From NCBI GenBank assembly GCA_022510465.1, contig JAFLTJ010000003.1, positions 1 through 64,000 on the forward strand: 64,000 bases of DNA, written 5' to 3'. This document shows positions 138 to 62,601 of the stretch, piece after piece; position 1 is the first letter of the stretch; each line of letters opens with the position of its first letter. Position numbers and translations under genes: made by a program. A model generated the notes under the pieces. It ran no database searches, was not told where the DNA came from, and saw nothing but the letters and a program-made list of their open reading frames with translations. Source of the stretch: Muribaculaceae bacterium (lineage in GTDB: Bacteria; Bacteroidota; Bacteroidia; Bacteroidales; Muribaculaceae).

Positions 138-542
138 TCAACATTTTTTTTGAAAAAATCTGTTTATCTCCGAGGCTATCTGCTCCATCTCCTCTGCCTC
201 CAACGTAAGCTTTGCAGCGCGAAAATCCATATCTTTCTCGCTGTTGAGCGGAACCAGGTGAATATGCGCGTGTGGAACCTCCATTCCAAGAACAGCCACC
301 CCTATGCGCTTACACGGCAACGCCTCTTTCATCGCCTCGGCAACACGTTTGCTAAACAGCTGCAACGCCGCAAATTCCTCATCATCAAGGTCAAATATAT
401 AATCAACCTCACGACGCGGTATACACAACACATGACCCCGCGCCATCGGATTTATATCCAAGAACGCATAATGACGCTCATCCTCGGCAACCTTGTAGGA
501 TGGAATCTCTCCAGCAGCGATTTTTGAAAAAATACTTGCCAT
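138..542 (-). CDS. HIT family protein
   Basis: HIT motif HAHIHLVP, MASIFSKIAAGEIPSYKV N-terminus. Confidence 0.93.
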   Translation of the reverse strand: MASIFSKIAAGEIPSYKVAEDERHYAFLDINPMARGHVLCIPRREVDYIFDLDDEEFAALQLFSKRVAEAMKEALPCKRIGVAVLGMEVPHAHIHLVPLNSEKDMDFRAAKLTLEAEEMEQIASEINRFFQKKC

Positions 543-554
543 GACTTTCAGCGA

Positions 555-1028
555 TTAATCAAAATCAACCTTGAGAATCTCAAACTTCATCAGGCCGGCC
601 GGAACCTTGATTTCAACAACATCGCCAACGCGGTGCCCCAGCAACCCCTGCGCTATCGGAGTGCTCGACCCAATCTTCTTTTCGCGCAGATTGGCCTCAC
701 TGTCGGCCACGATAGTGTACTCCATCGTCATATTGTTGCCAAGATTCTTGATAGTCACCCTATTCAGAATCTGAACAACCTCCGTGTTAAGCTCGCTTGT
801 GTCTATTATGCGCGAGTTTGCCACCAAGTCTTTCAGCTGCGCAATCTTCATCTCAAGCATACCTTGAGCCTCTTTCGCTGCATCATATTCCGAATTTTCC
901 GAAAGGTCTCCTTTATCTCGAGCCTCGGCAATTGCTGCCGATATGCGAGGGCGCTCAACCGATTCGAGATATGCTATCTCCTCCATCTTCTTCTTATAGC
1001 CCTCTTTGGTCATATAGGTTATAGCCAT
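555..1028 (-). CDS. greA: Transcription elongation factor GreA
   Basis: 157 aa; MTKEGYKKKMEEI..., RGDLSENSEYDAAKEAQ motif, GreA C-terminal domain. Confidence 0.95.
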   Translation of the reverse strand: MAITYMTKEGYKKKMEEIAYLESVERPRISAAIAEARDKGDLSENSEYDAAKEAQGMLEMKIAQLKDLVANSRIIDTSELNTEVVQILNRVTIKNLGNNMTMEYTIVADSEANLREKKIGSSTPIAQGLLGHRVGDVVEIKVPAGLMKFEILKVDFD

Positions 1029-1287
1029 GTCTGTCTATTTCTTATTCCGTTAATAATACCAACCTCGTTGGCACTCTTTTTTTATCACTCCAATAGCATA
1101 AAATAAAGAATCCCGCGAGATTTCCTACCACGAGACCCTCTTTTCTACCATTTCAACCGCAAAGTTAATCAATATTTGTTAAAAACAAAATTTTTTGAAC
1201 AAACTTCGTGGAATAATTGTTAATTTTGTGGTGATTCGCTTACGAACACTCAAGTCGCTATTTTTAACAACCTTAAAATTTACTAAT

Positions 1288-38700: not shown

Positions 38701-39070
38701 CAAAATTGCCCGGAGGGCATAAAGCTCGTTAGCCCTCGACATAGGCCTTCAGGCCGGTCGGGGGTTGCTTCCAAGCCTGCGCCAGCGCGGCGGAGCCGCA
38801 GCAACTTCGATAACCCCGTACGAGCTCGCGCAGCGAGCGACGTGCGGGGACCAGCCACCCACACCCTGCTTCGCACCCCGGCGGGGTGCAACTCCCATCG
38901 CCGCCAACCATCACGCCGCGTTAGCCCGGAAAGCAGGCTTCCAAGCCTGCGGCCCTCCGTCTCCCGGGCACTCCACCGCCCTCCCAGAGCGCGGCGGAGC
39001 CGCAGCAACTTCGTTAGCCCTCGACTTTCGAGCCTATCAGGCGAGTTGTCGGGGGTCGCTTCCAAGCCTG
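38701..39070. repeat. Modular palindromic repeat cluster 1
   Basis: GGA-loop hairpins at 38707, 38787, 38991; second stems 38733-38764, 38814-38849, 39018-39055; palindrome 38933-38950; GCACCCCGGCGGGGTGC at 38873. Confidence 0.85.
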
Positions 39071-42403: not shown

Positions 42404-42568
42404 GCAGGCTTCCAAGCCTGCGCCATCACCGCCACCCATCACGCCGCGTCAGCCCGGACAGCAGGCTTCCAAGCCTGCGCCCAGCGCGGCGGAGCCGCAG
42501 CCACTTCGTTAGCCCCCGACAAAGGCCCGAGGAGCGCCAGCGACGCAGGACCGGTCGGGGTTCCTGCG
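42404..42568. repeat. Modular palindromic repeat cluster 2 with 57-bp tandem duplication
   Basis: Palindromes 42404-42421 and 42461-42478; GGA hairpin 42486-42498; second stem 42513-42560. Confidence 0.85.
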
Positions 42569-45025: not shown

Positions 45026-46303
45026 TTAGTCAGAGTTTTTCAACAGATATCGCTCCCGCAAGTCGCTCCAGCGATAATACATCCCCTCGACAGGCGTCGC
45101 CGGCAGCCCGACCTCGCGCTCGTTCAGCATAGCCTTCACAAGGATGTCATCCTCCGTGTACTCCCGCCCGTACGGCCGGTAAAATATCAGCTGAACATTC
45201 GCCGCCATCGGAAAAACCTCATAATTTCGCCATCCCCCCTCGTCGGTCACCAAATCCTCCAGCCGACGATACTCCTTGGCATAATCATCAATCTCCAGCA
45301 GCACAACAAGCGGCATCAGCACACTCTCATGCCCGAATCTCAGATTCACGCTCTGACGCGGCGACATCAACGCCGTGTCGGCACTCTCCACTATGTTGTG
45401 AAGCAGCGCCACATGATTGGTAGCCGCCTTTCCCCCCGTCACAGGCCAGTTCCCGCTGCGCCAAAACCAGAATGCATTCGTGCGCAGCCACTGTTCATGA
45501 ATCTCATCGCGGCTGAAAACCGTCGCAATGTCACTCTGCGCTCCGTGTGAAACCGAGTTGGCCGCTATATCAAAAAGGTCATCGTTAAATCGCTTAATAT
45601 CAACGCTATCCGCTATCAGCCGGTCGTCACTGATAAGGACCTTTGCAAAATCGCCTCTTATCGGATACTTGTTGCGGAACGCCTCCAGCGAATCCTTTAC
45701 AGCCTCCACCCGCTTCCACGACGCAGTTGCCTCTGGATTAGCGATATAGTACATATCTGCCGCCGATGCATCGGTGTGCACAACCAAGTCATCATAAATC
45801 GATGCAAGCTCCTCTATCTCATTGAGCATCGACAGAATACAGCGTATAACCGCCGACGAGCGAGCATCCACGCAGGTCCCCGGCGCAAAAACCGTAGGAA
45901 AATTGCGAGCCATGCGCCGCGCTATTCCGCGATGTTGCTCTGCGCCAAGTTGCGTCAGCTCTCCGTCGCGGCCCGTCGCCTTGATTCTCAGCGTTTTAAG
46001 CTCAGCCAAGACCTCCGCGCCGCGTGGCGTCAACGCCCCGGCGCGCCCGGCCATTTCAAGCACATCCACAGGATATTGATAACGCCCCTCCCCAATAAGC
46101 CACCGGCTGCCGTGGCGCCCGTAATGCTCTATGTGAAAGGCCCTATAGCCCTCCGGTGCCGGCGTTGGCCGGCCTATCGCCGACCCCTCGGGATAAGCTT
46201 GATAGTTGGCCGCAGCCTCCGGAAACGCAACCGGCTCAACCGCGTGCCCGGCCACACCTGCGGCCAGCAGACACCCCGCTATATAAACCGTCAGCTTCTT
46301 CAT
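45026..46303 (-). CDS. Histidine-type phosphatase
   Basis: IEHYGRHGSRWLIG (RHG) motif; FGHESVLMPLV. Confidence 0.85.
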   Translation of the reverse strand: MKKLTVYIAGCLLAAGVAGHAVEPVAFPEAAANYQAYPEGSAIGRPTPAPEGYRAFHIEHYGRHGSRWLIGEGRYQYPVDVLEMAGRAGALTPRGAEVLAELKTLRIKATGRDGELTQLGAEQHRGIARRMARNFPTVFAPGTCVDARSSAVIRCILSMLNEIEELASIYDDLVVHTDASAADMYYIANPEATASWKRVEAVKDSLEAFRNKYPIRGDFAKVLISDDRLIADSVDIKRFNDDLFDIAANSVSHGAQSDIATVFSRDEIHEQWLRTNAFWFWRSGNWPVTGGKAATNHVALLHNIVESADTALMSPRQSVNLRFGHESVLMPLVVLLEIDDYAKEYRRLEDLVTDEGGWRNYEVFPMAANVQLIFYRPYGREYTEDDILVKAMLNEREVGLPATPVEGMYYRWSDLRERYLLKNSD

Positions 46304-48420
46304 CGGCTGGGGCGAGGCGACTGATTAGGCGTGCTCGGCTTGCGGCGCGCCAGGTCCTCATACAGGTTGTGGATGTTAACCGACTCTTTCCCGTCATATT
46401 TCTTCAACGCATTGCGGTTCCCGTTCTCGTTGGGCGTGCCAAGCGCTTTCCACGCCATTTCAACCATTTCCACAGCCTCGCGGTTGGTTGCCCGGCCGCT
46501 CACCGCAAAATAGTCATTCCCCGCAATTGCCTCAATATCACCCTTTTGGATTGCCGCGAGCAAATCACGATACTTTTGCGTTTTAAGCTCGCTTGCTTTC
46601 CAAACTTGGTTATTGTTAAGATACGCAATATCAGCCTGTTCGTCGCCGCTCTGCGTGGCCGGCGCCGCCGGTTGCTGCTGCGTCTCGGCGGTGGTGCCGT
46701 TGCCGGCATTGCCATCGGTAGCCCCCTCGATAACCTTCACAACATCAGCCCCTAAGGCCGTGTCGACATTATGAGCCTCAATCACATCCGGGTCTTTAGC
46801 ATCATCCTCGCCCGTTTTGGTCGAGGTAGGCAGGAAATATATCAACGCCAGCACCATAAGCACCGCCGACAGCGCCACTCCGAGGTATATCGCCGCCTTT
46901 CCGTCGCGTTTTTCATGCTGCTCCTCCCCGCCCAATGTCGACACATTGTCATCACCGGCCGAAACAGTCCGCTCCGCTTTCTCCTGCTTTTTATGCTTAT
47001 CTTTCGACGACTCACCCTCGCCTCTCGATATATTCTCAAATACCGGAATTTTACGACCCTGAGCCTCAGCCGTTGCCGAGGTATGAGTCGTTCCCGAAAC
47101 GTTGTCAAACGTCGGCGCCGTTGGCTTGGATGCCGCACGGACATCAACATTGTAAGCCTCGCTTGCACCCTGGCCCGAGATTCTATACGCACGGAAGCCA
47201 TGGAAAGTCCCCGAGTGCAACTGGCTGTATTCAGGCGTGTTGCGCTCTATCGAAATCTCCTGTTCAAACAAGCGCCCCTCCCCGAAATCAAGCCGCAGCA
47301 AGATACCCTGCTCCAGCGGCTCCAGAACTATGTCAAGCGTCTCAATATTAGCAAGTTCCGCCGGGTCCTTCTCCAATTTTATCGGCCTGAAATTGTTTGA
47401 CGCAATATTAATCTGAACCTTTTTGCCCGAAGTCATGTCATGCTCCGTCAGCTCTATCACCGGCTCTAAAGTATTGATAGAACGGCCGTTTACGCTTATC
47501 GTATACCCATGAACAGCCCCACCCTTGGCGCTGGTTACATTCAGCTTGACTCGACGCGTAAACGACAAACCACACTCCGACGCATTCTTAATCCTAATCA
47601 GCCCCCCGTCAATCTTCGCGTAAGGCGACGGAATCCCGGCCGTTATAATCTGCTTTGACGGATTAAAGCCCGGTTTTGAGAACATAACCGTTATACGGTC
47701 ACCCTCAACCGCATTGGCCGGCGTCGCACCCACCCCGGCAGGCGATTCAACCCAAAACTCCCGGTCGATAGGCCTTGACAGACGCGCCAGCGGAGCATTC
47801 GGCTTCAACGACGACGTCGCCGACACTATCAGAACGCGACGATAGAACCGATACTCCTCCTGATAGGGGAACGACAGAATCATATCAAGCTCATGACCGT
47901 TGGCGTATGTTCGGTAGCCCGTACCCTTAGGCTGCTGTTCCGTCGGCAGCTGGATATTCTGCTCACGGTCGGCCAGTTCGCCTATTATAGCATAATTCTC
48001 CGGCAGACCGACGCTGTCGAGCGCACGCACAATCGACTCCATATCCTTGGCATCCTCCTCTATCAGCGTCTTGCGCAGAGCGCTCAGCGCCGAGATAACA
48101 TGACGCCCCGACAGCAAAACCCCGTGAGGCACCATCAGCGACAGCAACATCGCCCCGCTTGACGGATTCAACGGATTGCGCGTAACCAATCCATAGTAAC
48201 ATCCGCCCACCGTCTGCCACATCGCATAACACTCCCGGGCGTTGTTAAACTGCTCCAACACCTTGGTCGGATTAAACACCGTCATCTTAGTCTCCGCCTG
48301 ACCCTCGGCAACCGCCGGAAACCTCACCGACGTTTTAAGCGAGTCGCCAAACTGGCCATAAAGAGATATTTTGATATAATCGTATTTACCCATAGTTTTG
48401 CATTTCTTATTAGAGTGCAA
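46300..48420 (-). CDS. Hypothetical single-TM protein (706 aa)
   Basis: Long soluble N-terminus, TM AAIYLGVALSAVLMVLALIYFL, soluble tail. Confidence 0.75.
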   Translation of the reverse strand: MHSNKKCKTMGKYDYIKISLYGQFGDSLKTSVRFPAVAEGQAETKMTVFNPTKVLEQFNNARECYAMWQTVGGCYYGLVTRNPLNPSSGAMLLSLMVPHGVLLSGRHVISALSALRKTLIEEDAKDMESIVRALDSVGLPENYAIIGELADREQNIQLPTEQQPKGTGYRTYANGHELDMILSFPYQEEYRFYRRVLIVSATSSLKPNAPLARLSRPIDREFWVESPAGVGATPANAVEGDRITVMFSKPGFNPSKQIITAGIPSPYAKIDGGLIRIKNASECGLSFTRRVKLNVTSAKGGAVHGYTISVNGRSINTLEPVIELTEHDMTSGKKVQINIASNNFRPIKLEKDPAELANIETLDIVLEPLEQGILLRLDFGEGRLFEQEISIERNTPEYSQLHSGTFHGFRAYRISGQGASEAYNVDVRAASKPTAPTFDNVSGTTHTSATAEAQGRKIPVFENISRGEGESSKDKHKKQEKAERTVSAGDDNVSTLGGEEQHEKRDGKAAIYLGVALSAVLMVLALIYFLPTSTKTGEDDAKDPDVIEAHNVDTALGADVVKVIEGATDGNAGNGTTAETQQQPAAPATQSGDEQADIAYLNNNQVWKASELKTQKYRDLLAAIQKGDIEAIAGNDYFAVSGRATNREAVEMVEMAWKALGTPNENGNRNALKKYDGKESVNIHNLYEDLARRKPSTPNQSPRPSR

Positions 48421-48575: not shown

Positions 48576-48696
48576 GCAGGCTTCCAAGCCTCCGCCCGTC
48601 GCCGCGACCCATCCTGCCGTTTTTTTCCGCAGGCTTGGAAGCCTGCGGCTCCGGGCCCATCCTGCCGTTTTTCACGCAAATGCCGCGGAGCGGCAC
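48576..48696. repeat. Palindrome dimer plus GGA-loop hairpin
   Basis: Palindromes at 48576 (1 mismatch) and 48629; TGCCGC-GGA-GCGGCA at ~48681-48696. Confidence 0.8.
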
Positions 48697-49070
48697 TACA
48701 ACGTAGCCGCAATTTTTCGGATTGAGGACAGCCGCTTCATCAGCGAATCATTCGACCGCGCCACCTGCATATTATATGCGTTTTGCAGATTCAGCCACAG
48801 ATTAGCGTCAATCCCCAGCGCCGCTTCCAGTAGCAATGCCATTTCGGTATTTACGCCGCGCTTCCCCTTGATTATCTCGTTTAGCAGCGATGGTTTCACC
48901 CCTATTTGCTCTGAAAATTTTGCCTGCTTGATATTTCGGCATTCAAGCTCGTCACGAAGCAACTCCCCGGGGTGGGTAGCTTCAAAAGGCGTCAGATTGT
49001 TAGCAATCATGCGAGGGTCAATCCCCGGCAATGTAATCATTTCAGTCATAATGGTTTGATAATTCTTCAA
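48696..49070 (-). CDS. HigA-family antitoxin (XRE-type), no toxin gene adjacent
   Basis: THPGELLRDELECRNIKQAKFSEQIGVKPSLLNEIIKGKRGV. Confidence 0.88.
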   Translation of the reverse strand: MKNYQTIMTEMITLPGIDPRMIANNLTPFEATHPGELLRDELECRNIKQAKFSEQIGVKPSLLNEIIKGKRGVNTEMALLLEAALGIDANLWLNLQNAYNMQVARSNDSLMKRLSSIRKIAATL

Positions 49071-49110
49071 TATTGCATATACTGAGCACAGGCTCCTGGC
49101 CCGTGCAAAA

Positions 49111-49820
49111 TTGCCCGGAGGGCATAAAGATTGTTAGCCCCCGACAAAGGCCCCAGGAGCGCCAGCGACACAGGGCCGGTCGGGGGAAAACGGGTCTATC
49201 TATCGTAAACCTACCCCGGAGGGGTTGCACCCCAATCGCGTTCATCCCATTCAAATTGATATTCCATCGCCAATTGTTTCATTTCGGTGATGAAATCTTT
49301 CTCGTTATGGCTTGTATCTTGATTTATAATGTATTGCACACAGGCCGCCTCCTCATTCGCTCCGATTGAAGCGGCATAATAGCCTTCGTTCCACCCGGAG
49401 AATTTTTTAAAATCGATTTCATTTTTCATCCAAAGCGAGGTTGACTGCTTGATTTCTTTTACGAGGGTAGCCAACGCAACACTCGGATGAAGGTCTATAA
49501 GAATGTGAACATGGTCGGCGAGACCATTAATGCGCAGCGTTTTACACCGATATTTCTGAATAATACCGTGAATATATGCATACAGCCTGCGCTTGTGATT
49601 TAAAGAAATTGTCGGTTGCCGATATTTTGTACTGAATACAATGTGCACCAAAATACGTGTCTTGCTCATGACGGCAAATTTAGCCATTTTTCGTTGAAAG
49701 TCCAACCCCTCACGGGGTTGGATATGGTGGGTGGTCTATTCCCCCCCGACCGGTCCTGCGTTCGCTTCACGCTCCGCGGACCTTTGTCGGGGGCTTACAA
49801 TCTTAAGCCGCTCCGCGGCT
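49111..49820 (-). mobile_element. RAYT-like transposase unit flanked by inverted two-hairpin repeat arms
   Basis: Left arm 49111-49186 and right arm 49741-49820 are similar in inverted orientation around the Y1 transposase gene. Confidence 0.7.
49211..49669 (-). CDS. IS200/RAYT-like HUH (Y1) transposase
   Basis: MSKTRILVHIVFSTKYRQP..., ADHVHILIDLHP (HUH), SGWNEGYYAASIGANEEAACVQYIINQ (candidate catalytic Tyr). Confidence 0.88.
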   Translation of the reverse strand: MSKTRILVHIVFSTKYRQPTISLNHKRRLYAYIHGIIQKYRCKTLRINGLADHVHILIDLHPSVALATLVKEIKQSTSLWMKNEIDFKKFSGWNEGYYAASIGANEEAACVQYIINQDTSHNEKDFITEMKQLAMEYQFEWDERDWGATPPG

Positions 49821-50169
49821 ATGACGCGCTCTCCAACACGCCGCCATATATCAACCGTTTTGTTTCATCCACTTCCTCCTTAAAATATGGATTTCTGATA
49901 TACTCTTCATTTACCAAATCTACTCTTCGCCCAAACAGGTCCTGAAGGTCCATATACAGATTAAGAGCATTTTCGCCTAAAACCAAAGGGTCCGATTCCG
50001 GCTCATAATTCACAAGCAAATCAACATCGCTTTGTTCATTAAAGCGTGGAGTTAGGATAGAACCAAAGACATACATATTTTTGACCCTATACTTGCGGCA
50101 CAGGGCATACAGTTTGTCTATGTTATCGTAAATCAGATTCATATCGCAAATATATGAATTATTTCGCAT
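49819..50169 (-). CDS. MNT-type nucleotidyltransferase
   Basis: VFGSILTPRFNEQSDVDLLVNYE (GSxxx...DxD) motif; no HEPN partner adjacent. Confidence 0.85.
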   Translation of the reverse strand: MRNNSYICDMNLIYDNIDKLYALCRKYRVKNMYVFGSILTPRFNEQSDVDLLVNYEPESDPLVLGENALNLYMDLQDLFGRRVDLVNEEYIRNPYFKEEVDETKRLIYGGVLESAS

Positions 50170-50235: not shown

Positions 50236-50597
50236 GCAGGCTTCCAAGCCTGCGCCATCACAGCCGCCCGGTGGTGGCGGTTAGTGGCACCCCGCCGGGG
50301 TGCGAGTCGGGTGGGGGCACCAATCCGGGCACATCGCTCGCTACGCGAGCTCGTACCCGGTTATCGAGCTTGCTGCCGCTCCGCGGCGCTCTCCGTCGCG
50401 TCGCGTTAGCCCGGAAAGCAGGCTTCCAAGCCTGCGGCTTTTGCGGCGACCCATCCTGCCGTATTTTTCCGCAGGCTTGGAAGCCTGCGGCTCCGGGCCC
50501 GTGCCACCGTTTTCCTGCCAATTGCCCGGAGGGCATAAAGATTGTTAGCCCTCGACAAAGGTCCCAGGAGCGCCAGCGACGCAGGACCGGTCGGGGG
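50236..50597. repeat. Modular palindromic repeat cluster 3
   Basis: Palindromes 50236, 50418, 50471; rc GGA hairpin 50375-50387 with stem 50325-50360; TGCCC-GGA-GGGCA 50523-50535 with stem 50549-50597; GCACCCCGCCGGGGTGC 50287-50303. Confidence 0.85.
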
Positions 50598-62266: not shown

Positions 62267-62601
62267 GCAGGCTTCCAAGCCTGCGCCTTTCACCGTGACC
62301 CATGCTGCCGTTTTTTCCGCAGGCTTGGAAGCCTGCGGCTCCGGGGCCGTGCAAAATTGCCCGGAGGGCATAAAGATTGTTAGCCCTCGACTTTCGAGCC
62401 GCCAGGCGAGTTGTCGGGGGTCGCTTCCAAGCCTGCGGCATTCACAGCGACCCATCACACCGCGTCAGCCTGGAAAGCAGGCTTCCAAGCCTGCGGTAGC
62501 GCCGCGGAGCGGCAGCCACTTCGATAACCCCGTACGAGCTCGCACCGCGAGCGACGTGCGGGGCCAGCGCCACTTCACGACATCGCACCCCGGCGGGGTG
62601 C
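62267..62601. repeat. Modular palindromic repeat cluster 4
   Basis: Palindromes 62267, 62319, 62477; GGA hairpins 62358, 62501; second stems 62384-62420, 62528-62563; GCACCCCGGCGGGGTGC 62585. Confidence 0.87.

Follow-up and report, generated by a model that had tools for sequence, protein, structure and literature searches.

In this study, we show that a transposase gene of a gut Muribaculaceae bacterium lies between two mirror-image arms of hairpins, and that these arms are members of a dispersed REP-like family. Comparison with related genomes suggests that the segment from 49109 to 49820 of the window, that is, of the whole 64,000-nucleotide stretch of DNA analysed here (part of a 71-kb contig in a draft genome of 2.1 Mb), is probably an autonomous single-strand-DNA mobile element in which a Y1 transposase stands between two cognate mirror-image ends. 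From outside to inside, each arm is made up of hairpin A, a spacer ending in TTAG or TAAG, hairpin B, a linker and hairpin C, with the parts located as follows.

49109-49820: candidate single-strand-DNA element in the window of the Muribaculaceae bacterium, transposase gene plus two arms
49112..49124, plus strand: hairpin A of the left arm, TGCCC-GGA-GGGCA, 13 nt (homology with the HAN051 genome starts at 49109)
49125..49137, plus strand: left spacer TAAAGATTGTTAG, 13 nt, with TTAG at its 3' end (putative guide)
49138..49186, plus strand: hairpin B of the left arm, CCCCCGAC...GTCGGGGG, basal stem of 8 bp
49213..49225, plus strand: hairpin C of the left arm, ACCCC-GGA-GGGGT, overlapping the transposase stop codon
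49211..49705, minus strand: Y1 (HuH/tyrosine) transposase with DHVH and YIINQDTSH motifs, 164 aa when counted from the listed TTG
49669, minus strand: probable ATG start of the transposase (MSKTRILVHIVF...)
49702..49721, minus strand: hairpin C' of the right arm, CCAACCCC-GTGA-GGGGTTGG in the minus-strand reading
49743..49793, minus strand: hairpin B' of the right arm
49794..49806, minus strand: right spacer TTAAGATTGTAAG, with the tetranucleotide TAAG before B'
49807..49819, minus strand: hairpin A' of the right arm, GCCGC-GGA-GCGGC (HAN051 homology stops at 49818)

Both arms and their 13-nt spacers, reported in a preliminary description of this locus, are present where it had placed them. 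The two hairpins which it gave for each arm are also there, but it overlooked the third one (C and C'), which adjoins the transposase gene and overlaps its ends, as well as the further copies of the arms in the window and the varying first stems among them. Its further claim that the first stem had been exchanged between the arms is correct in that TGCCC and GCCGC differ, but this is ordinary compensated variation; the dispersed copies differ in their first stem (TGCCC, GCCGC and GCGGC), and the apparent exchange is therefore within the normal range of the family. Nor is it a rule that hairpin A always differs between two arms, as it is identical or nearly identical in several loci.

The protein belongs to the IS200/IS605 superfamily of Y1 transposases, having an HuH motif and a catalytic tyrosine. 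It matches Pfam PF01797 (Y1_Tnp; E=3.9e-27) and the NCBIfam IS200/IS605 model NF033573 (86.8 bits against a cut-off of 55), and the solved structures nearest to it are transposases of the ISDra2/ISHp608 type. Assigned by motif only, it appears to be like subclass 1.2, which is defined by Y...Q..HH, occurs mainly in Cyanobacteria and Bacteroidetes, and was recorded with no REPs and no typical IS200 end structures (Quentin et al., 2018; PMC6006769). The likeness takes in the HuH motif DHVH, the Y...Q motif, a length of about 150 aa, the occurrence in Bacteroidota and the low copy number; the tyrosine motif of the window protein, YIINQDTSHN, has SH in place of HH, and Y...Q..HH is found in nearly all of its relatives. 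A class 2 RAYT was rejected, given the Y...Q motif where a RAYT has Y...NP and a score of 32 bits against the NCBIfam RAYT cut-off of 80. The window genome contains a single close match to the transposase. A second and more distant Y1 gene (L002, G000:C45:3865-4101) is of class 2 type (YIEMNP) and is flanked by copies of a different dispersed palindromic family (GCAGGCTTGGAAGCCTGC...), abundant in the window (e.g. at 38895, 42366, 48538, 50226, 57143 and 62229); thus each of the genome's two Y1 genes lies amid its own repeat family.

The edges of the unit emerge from comparison with other genomes, most of which are draft MAGs. HAN051 (G045), a Muribaculaceae MAG of a sister species in the same genus, carries the transposase gene at another locus with different neighbouring genes; its homology with the window covers 49109-49818 at 80% identity, ends on either side at the outer A hairpin and does not continue beyond the arms. 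HAN051 also contains three gene-less mirror elements (C302, C62 and C26), each composed of an arm, a short linker and an inverted arm, and those of C302 and C62 match at 85% over ~250 nt, with both A hairpins as edges and unrelated flanks. The suggestion that the arms define the mobile unit is upheld by these two comparisons, since the homology stops at the outer A edges in both. It had also been recommended to look for other copies and empty sites. Other copies placed the edges at the A hairpins, as in genome G010 (two copies, 87% identity, both ending there), and in genome G049 the homology of two copies (93.5%) extends some 20-45 nt beyond hairpin A. The C302 element of HAN051 has on its two sides the orthologues of window 174-1029 and 1300-2248, and the window lacks it at that place, but an exact empty site was not recovered for it because the flanks are too diverged to align. 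From these comparisons we infer that the element is mobile.

Relocation of the gene by recombination between dispersed repeats, rather than by transposition, seems quite unlikely to us, although solo copies of the arms are abundant and a truncated gene next to the left arm looks like the outcome of a deletion between repeats:

49045..49104, minus strand: remnant of a HigB-type toxin gene, its last ~20 codons, adjoining the left arm (tblastn against intact copies)

The remnant is followed by a HigA antitoxin gene (window 48696-49104), and the higB-higA pair is intact in HAN051 and in G024, a third species of the genus. The remaining part of higB was found neither to the right of the element nor elsewhere in the window genome. 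A clean insertion into higB is thereby ruled out, and the absence of the rest of the gene from the right side indicates that DNA was deleted or rearranged during or after insertion. Recombination is harder to reconcile with the gene-less mirror elements and their clean A-hairpin edges between unrelated flanks. A 706-aa protein encoded at window 46300-48420 on the minus strand has no Pfam match, and a homologous stretch is present on HAN051 contig C211.

It is possible, though on balance somewhat unlikely, that the locus is a domesticated REPtron-like pair, in which a resident host gene spreads and maintains the repeats in trans while the gene and its arms rarely or never move, as REPtrons have been described (PMC6006769, PMC8266576). 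The repeats far outnumber the genes, the window genome has only the one close gene copy, and the transposase shows purifying selection between the window and HAN051 (dN 0.060, dS 1.01, dN/dS about 0.06). The protein must therefore be in use, but this selection fits an active mobile element as well as a domesticated gene and does not tell them apart. Moreover, in three pairs of loci (L168/L170, L171/L176 and L025/L027) the gene has the same position in different species with both flanks conserved; thus, the element may often be stationary. Against permanent residence stand the arm-to-arm unit at different loci in the two Muribaculaceae species and the duplication of the gene together with its arms within genomes (L045/L209 and L211/L218).

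Copies of the arms without the gene are dispersed in the window, and another lies past its end on the same contig (65548).

50520..50597, plus strand: solo A-B copy, 95% identical to the left arm
62355..62420, plus strand: solo copy with hairpin B in short form
42482..42561, plus strand: solo copy, first stem GCGGC-GGA-GCCGC
38704..38764, plus strand: solo copy
38987..39055, plus strand: solo copy, first stem GCGGC-GGA-GCCGC

A covariance model built from 15 copies of the window genome found at least 29 matches in that genome and at least 11 in HAN051; up to 40 candidates were scored in each genome, which makes the counts lower bounds. Apart from the window genome, only HAN051 among those searched has a close relative of the transposase (86%). 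Among the candidates scored, there were no matches in G024, whose genome is 99% complete and has no close homologue of the transposase gene, and at most four weak matches in any other of 119 family genomes. The repeats and the matching transposase occur together in the window genome and HAN051. With regard to neighbouring genes, two paralogous MntA-like nucleotidyltransferases (window 49819-50169 and G000:C78:144-452) each end beside a copy of the arm family, and the adjoining copies have opposite relative orientation.

The resemblance of the two flanks is above chance. Their mirror similarity score is 72, against a maximum of 26 after shuffling, and when 417 windows were tiled across the stretch, scores above 29 appeared only with an arm of the 49109-49820 element, either at the element locus itself or where one arm was paired with the copy at 50520. 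Five occurrences of the spacer-plus-B motif were counted in the window, with 0.03 expected. A protein match was found in 149 of 297 family genomes. Among subclass-1.2-type loci with enough flank, 26 of 29 (the window and HAN051 counted) have mirrored arms above the shuffle maximum, while none of four IS200-type or motif-less genes does; 40 further loci were taken as an independent set, in which 36 of 38 usable loci have such arms.

These results bear on both findings which the preliminary description had named as speaking against its proposal. Transposase genes without arms are rare (arms exceed the shuffled level at 62 of 67 family loci), and insertion of the two arms by chance or independently of each other is ruled out by the tiling, the shuffling and the independent set. 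It is exceedingly improbable that the arms are unrelated repeats, such as REPs or terminators, which came by accident to flank a transposase gene. The window does hold other copies in intergenic clusters, but the mirrored arms of those family loci have the same order, polarity and spacing with different sequences, and the boundaries match at both ends. The same recurrence bears on the idea of REP copies captured by a RAYT: the dispersed REP-like family is real, but the protein falls outside the class 2 RAYTs and the arms look cognate rather than captured, because almost all subclass-1.2-type genes tested have this arrangement.

Although sequences differ among the arms of relatives, the order, polarity and spacing of their hairpins are constant. 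A structural rule without fixed loop sequence found a full A-foot-B unit in 60 arms, and 55 of these give a distance of 20.6 +/- 0.9 nt from the centre of loop A to the foot of B, which follows it. Hairpin B is in turn followed, mostly after 28-34 nt, by loop C. It is loop A whose position is constant; the outer edge of A shifts with stem length, which rules out a fixed spacing between this edge and B. The foot of B reads NTA(A/G), which the search had in part presupposed (TTAA 21, GTAA 11, TTAG 9, ATAG 7, ATAA 7, GTAG 3 and CTAA 2 among the 60 arms). The A loop scored as GNA or GNNA in 47 of 60, and loops of this type form unusually stable DNA hairpins (PMC4686876). A strict structural rule picks up only part of the arms. 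Orientation is markedly skewed, since in the independent set the unit runs outside to inside in 21 of 78 arms, is reversed in 2 of 78 and occurs in none of the shuffled flanks. When stem pairs were compared between the two arms of the same element, there were 28 double compensated changes and no double broken ones, besides 7 G-T pairs and 10 one-sided breaks. The compensated changes support folding of the hairpins, bearing in mind that units were chosen for good stems in one arm.

Such hairpins could act in RNA, by controlling transposase translation or transcript ends or as terminators of neighbouring genes. C and C' overlap the gene ends, and structured 5' regions are reported to matter in IS200 transposase mRNA (PMC12594629). 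We find this very unlikely, in view of the dozens of sites which have the same hairpins without a gene and of the outside-to-inside polarity on both flanks, which means that one arm is reversed on the transcript. A known RNA family was rejected as well, since no Rfam family matches the arms and no score came near a gathering threshold.

The best reading is that the arms would be ends cognate to the transposase, recognised as folded single-stranded DNA and amplified as REP-, REPIN- or MITE-like repeats. In IS608, ISDra2 and TnpA-REP the enzyme binds a folded single-stranded DNA hairpin, and the tetranucleotide at its foot helps to choose the cleavage site (PMC8266576). By analogy with these systems, hairpin B and its NTA(A/G) foot would be the likely recognition site and guide, a transposase dimer might bind the folded single strand at lagging-strand gaps, and the cut is likely to fall close to where hairpin A ends on the outside. 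With the ends inverted, each of the two strands would offer one end in the correct orientation, as in REPINs. It is possible that stem sequences drift provided that both sides change together, which would account for the seemingly exchanged first stem.

The system seems to join a REPtron-like organisation to an IS200-like protein. As with REPtrons, RAYTs and REPINs, inverted hairpin repeats flank the gene and are dispersed, there is a tetranucleotide at the hairpin foot, and inverted pairs occur without a gene; the three gene-less end pairs of HAN051 likewise resemble REPINs or MITEs. However, the protein is of class 1 by motif (Y...Q) whereas RAYTs are of class 2 (Y...NP), the foot is NTA(A/G), mostly TTAA (TTAG/TAAG in the window), instead of the GT(A/G)G of REPtrons, and each arm has two extra hairpins, mostly with GNA loops, at fixed distances. 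With IS200/IS605 elements such as IS608 and ISDra2 it shares the transposase superfamily, the nearest structures and a tetranucleotide at the 5' foot of a hairpin near the end, but those have single subterminal hairpins and no long inverted repeats, in contrast to the mirrored three-hairpin arms found here. TIRtrons (TIRYTs) are Y1 genes with terminal inverted repeats, in some cases self-complementary and in some dispersed, and the text consulted mentions no three-hairpin scaffold (Di Nocera et al., 2013; PMC3733652). TIRtron genes belong to subclasses 2.1, 2.2 and 2.5, not 1.2 (PMC6006769); the 2.1-type has a C-terminal HTH and GGGGWSAS inverted repeats, whereas the motif of the window protein is of class 1.

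For subclass 1.2 itself, the survey entered "no" for REPs, in contrast to the mirrored hairpin arms and dispersed copies seen here (PMC6006769). Its automatic REP search accepted a hairpin only with GT(A/G)G at the foot and would therefore miss most NTA(A/G) feet (Quentin et al., 2018; PMC6006769). No description of subclass 1.2 arms was found in the literature searched, subscription journals and ISfinder being outside that search, and within it neither the end architecture nor the ruler was found described. This large group of HuH transposases, which has matches in roughly half the genomes searched at family and phylum level when every Y1 match is included, had been recorded with neither partner DNA nor a known role. 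Should the arms prove to be its substrates, short oligonucleotides would allow a direct test of the group, and many hairpin repeats of gut Bacteroidota which are so far unexplained would have a source. The element also raises the question of how a single enzyme fold can recognise a constant arrangement of three hairpins whose stem sequences vary freely.

At the level of the phylum, 13 of 26 loci have arms detectable by sequence similarity alone. The cyanobacterial matches (L018, L019 and L022) look subclass 1.1-like or are motif-less. The same arm anatomy occurs outside the phylum in Oligosphaera ethanolica, which we take to belong to the Lentisphaerota, with a protein identity of 42% and at least 49 dispersed copies, most of them with the same ~119-nt core at 93-97% identity. 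It is quite conceivable, and we propose it tentatively, that the subclass-1.2-type transposases of Bacteroidota, and of one or more Lentisphaerota species, constitute a single-strand mobile system of a separate kind, the ends of which are mirror-symmetric three-hairpin scaffolds read by geometry (loop A 20-21 nt before B, the NTA(A/G) foot and mini-hairpins with GNA loops) and not by sequence. Recognition of this kind would leave each gene free to diverge together with its own private repeat family. In O. ethanolica four arms stand in tandem to the right of the gene (L016 5487-6158) with a period of about 183 nt, and other copies along the chromosome have partly conserved flanks in common beyond the 119-nt core.
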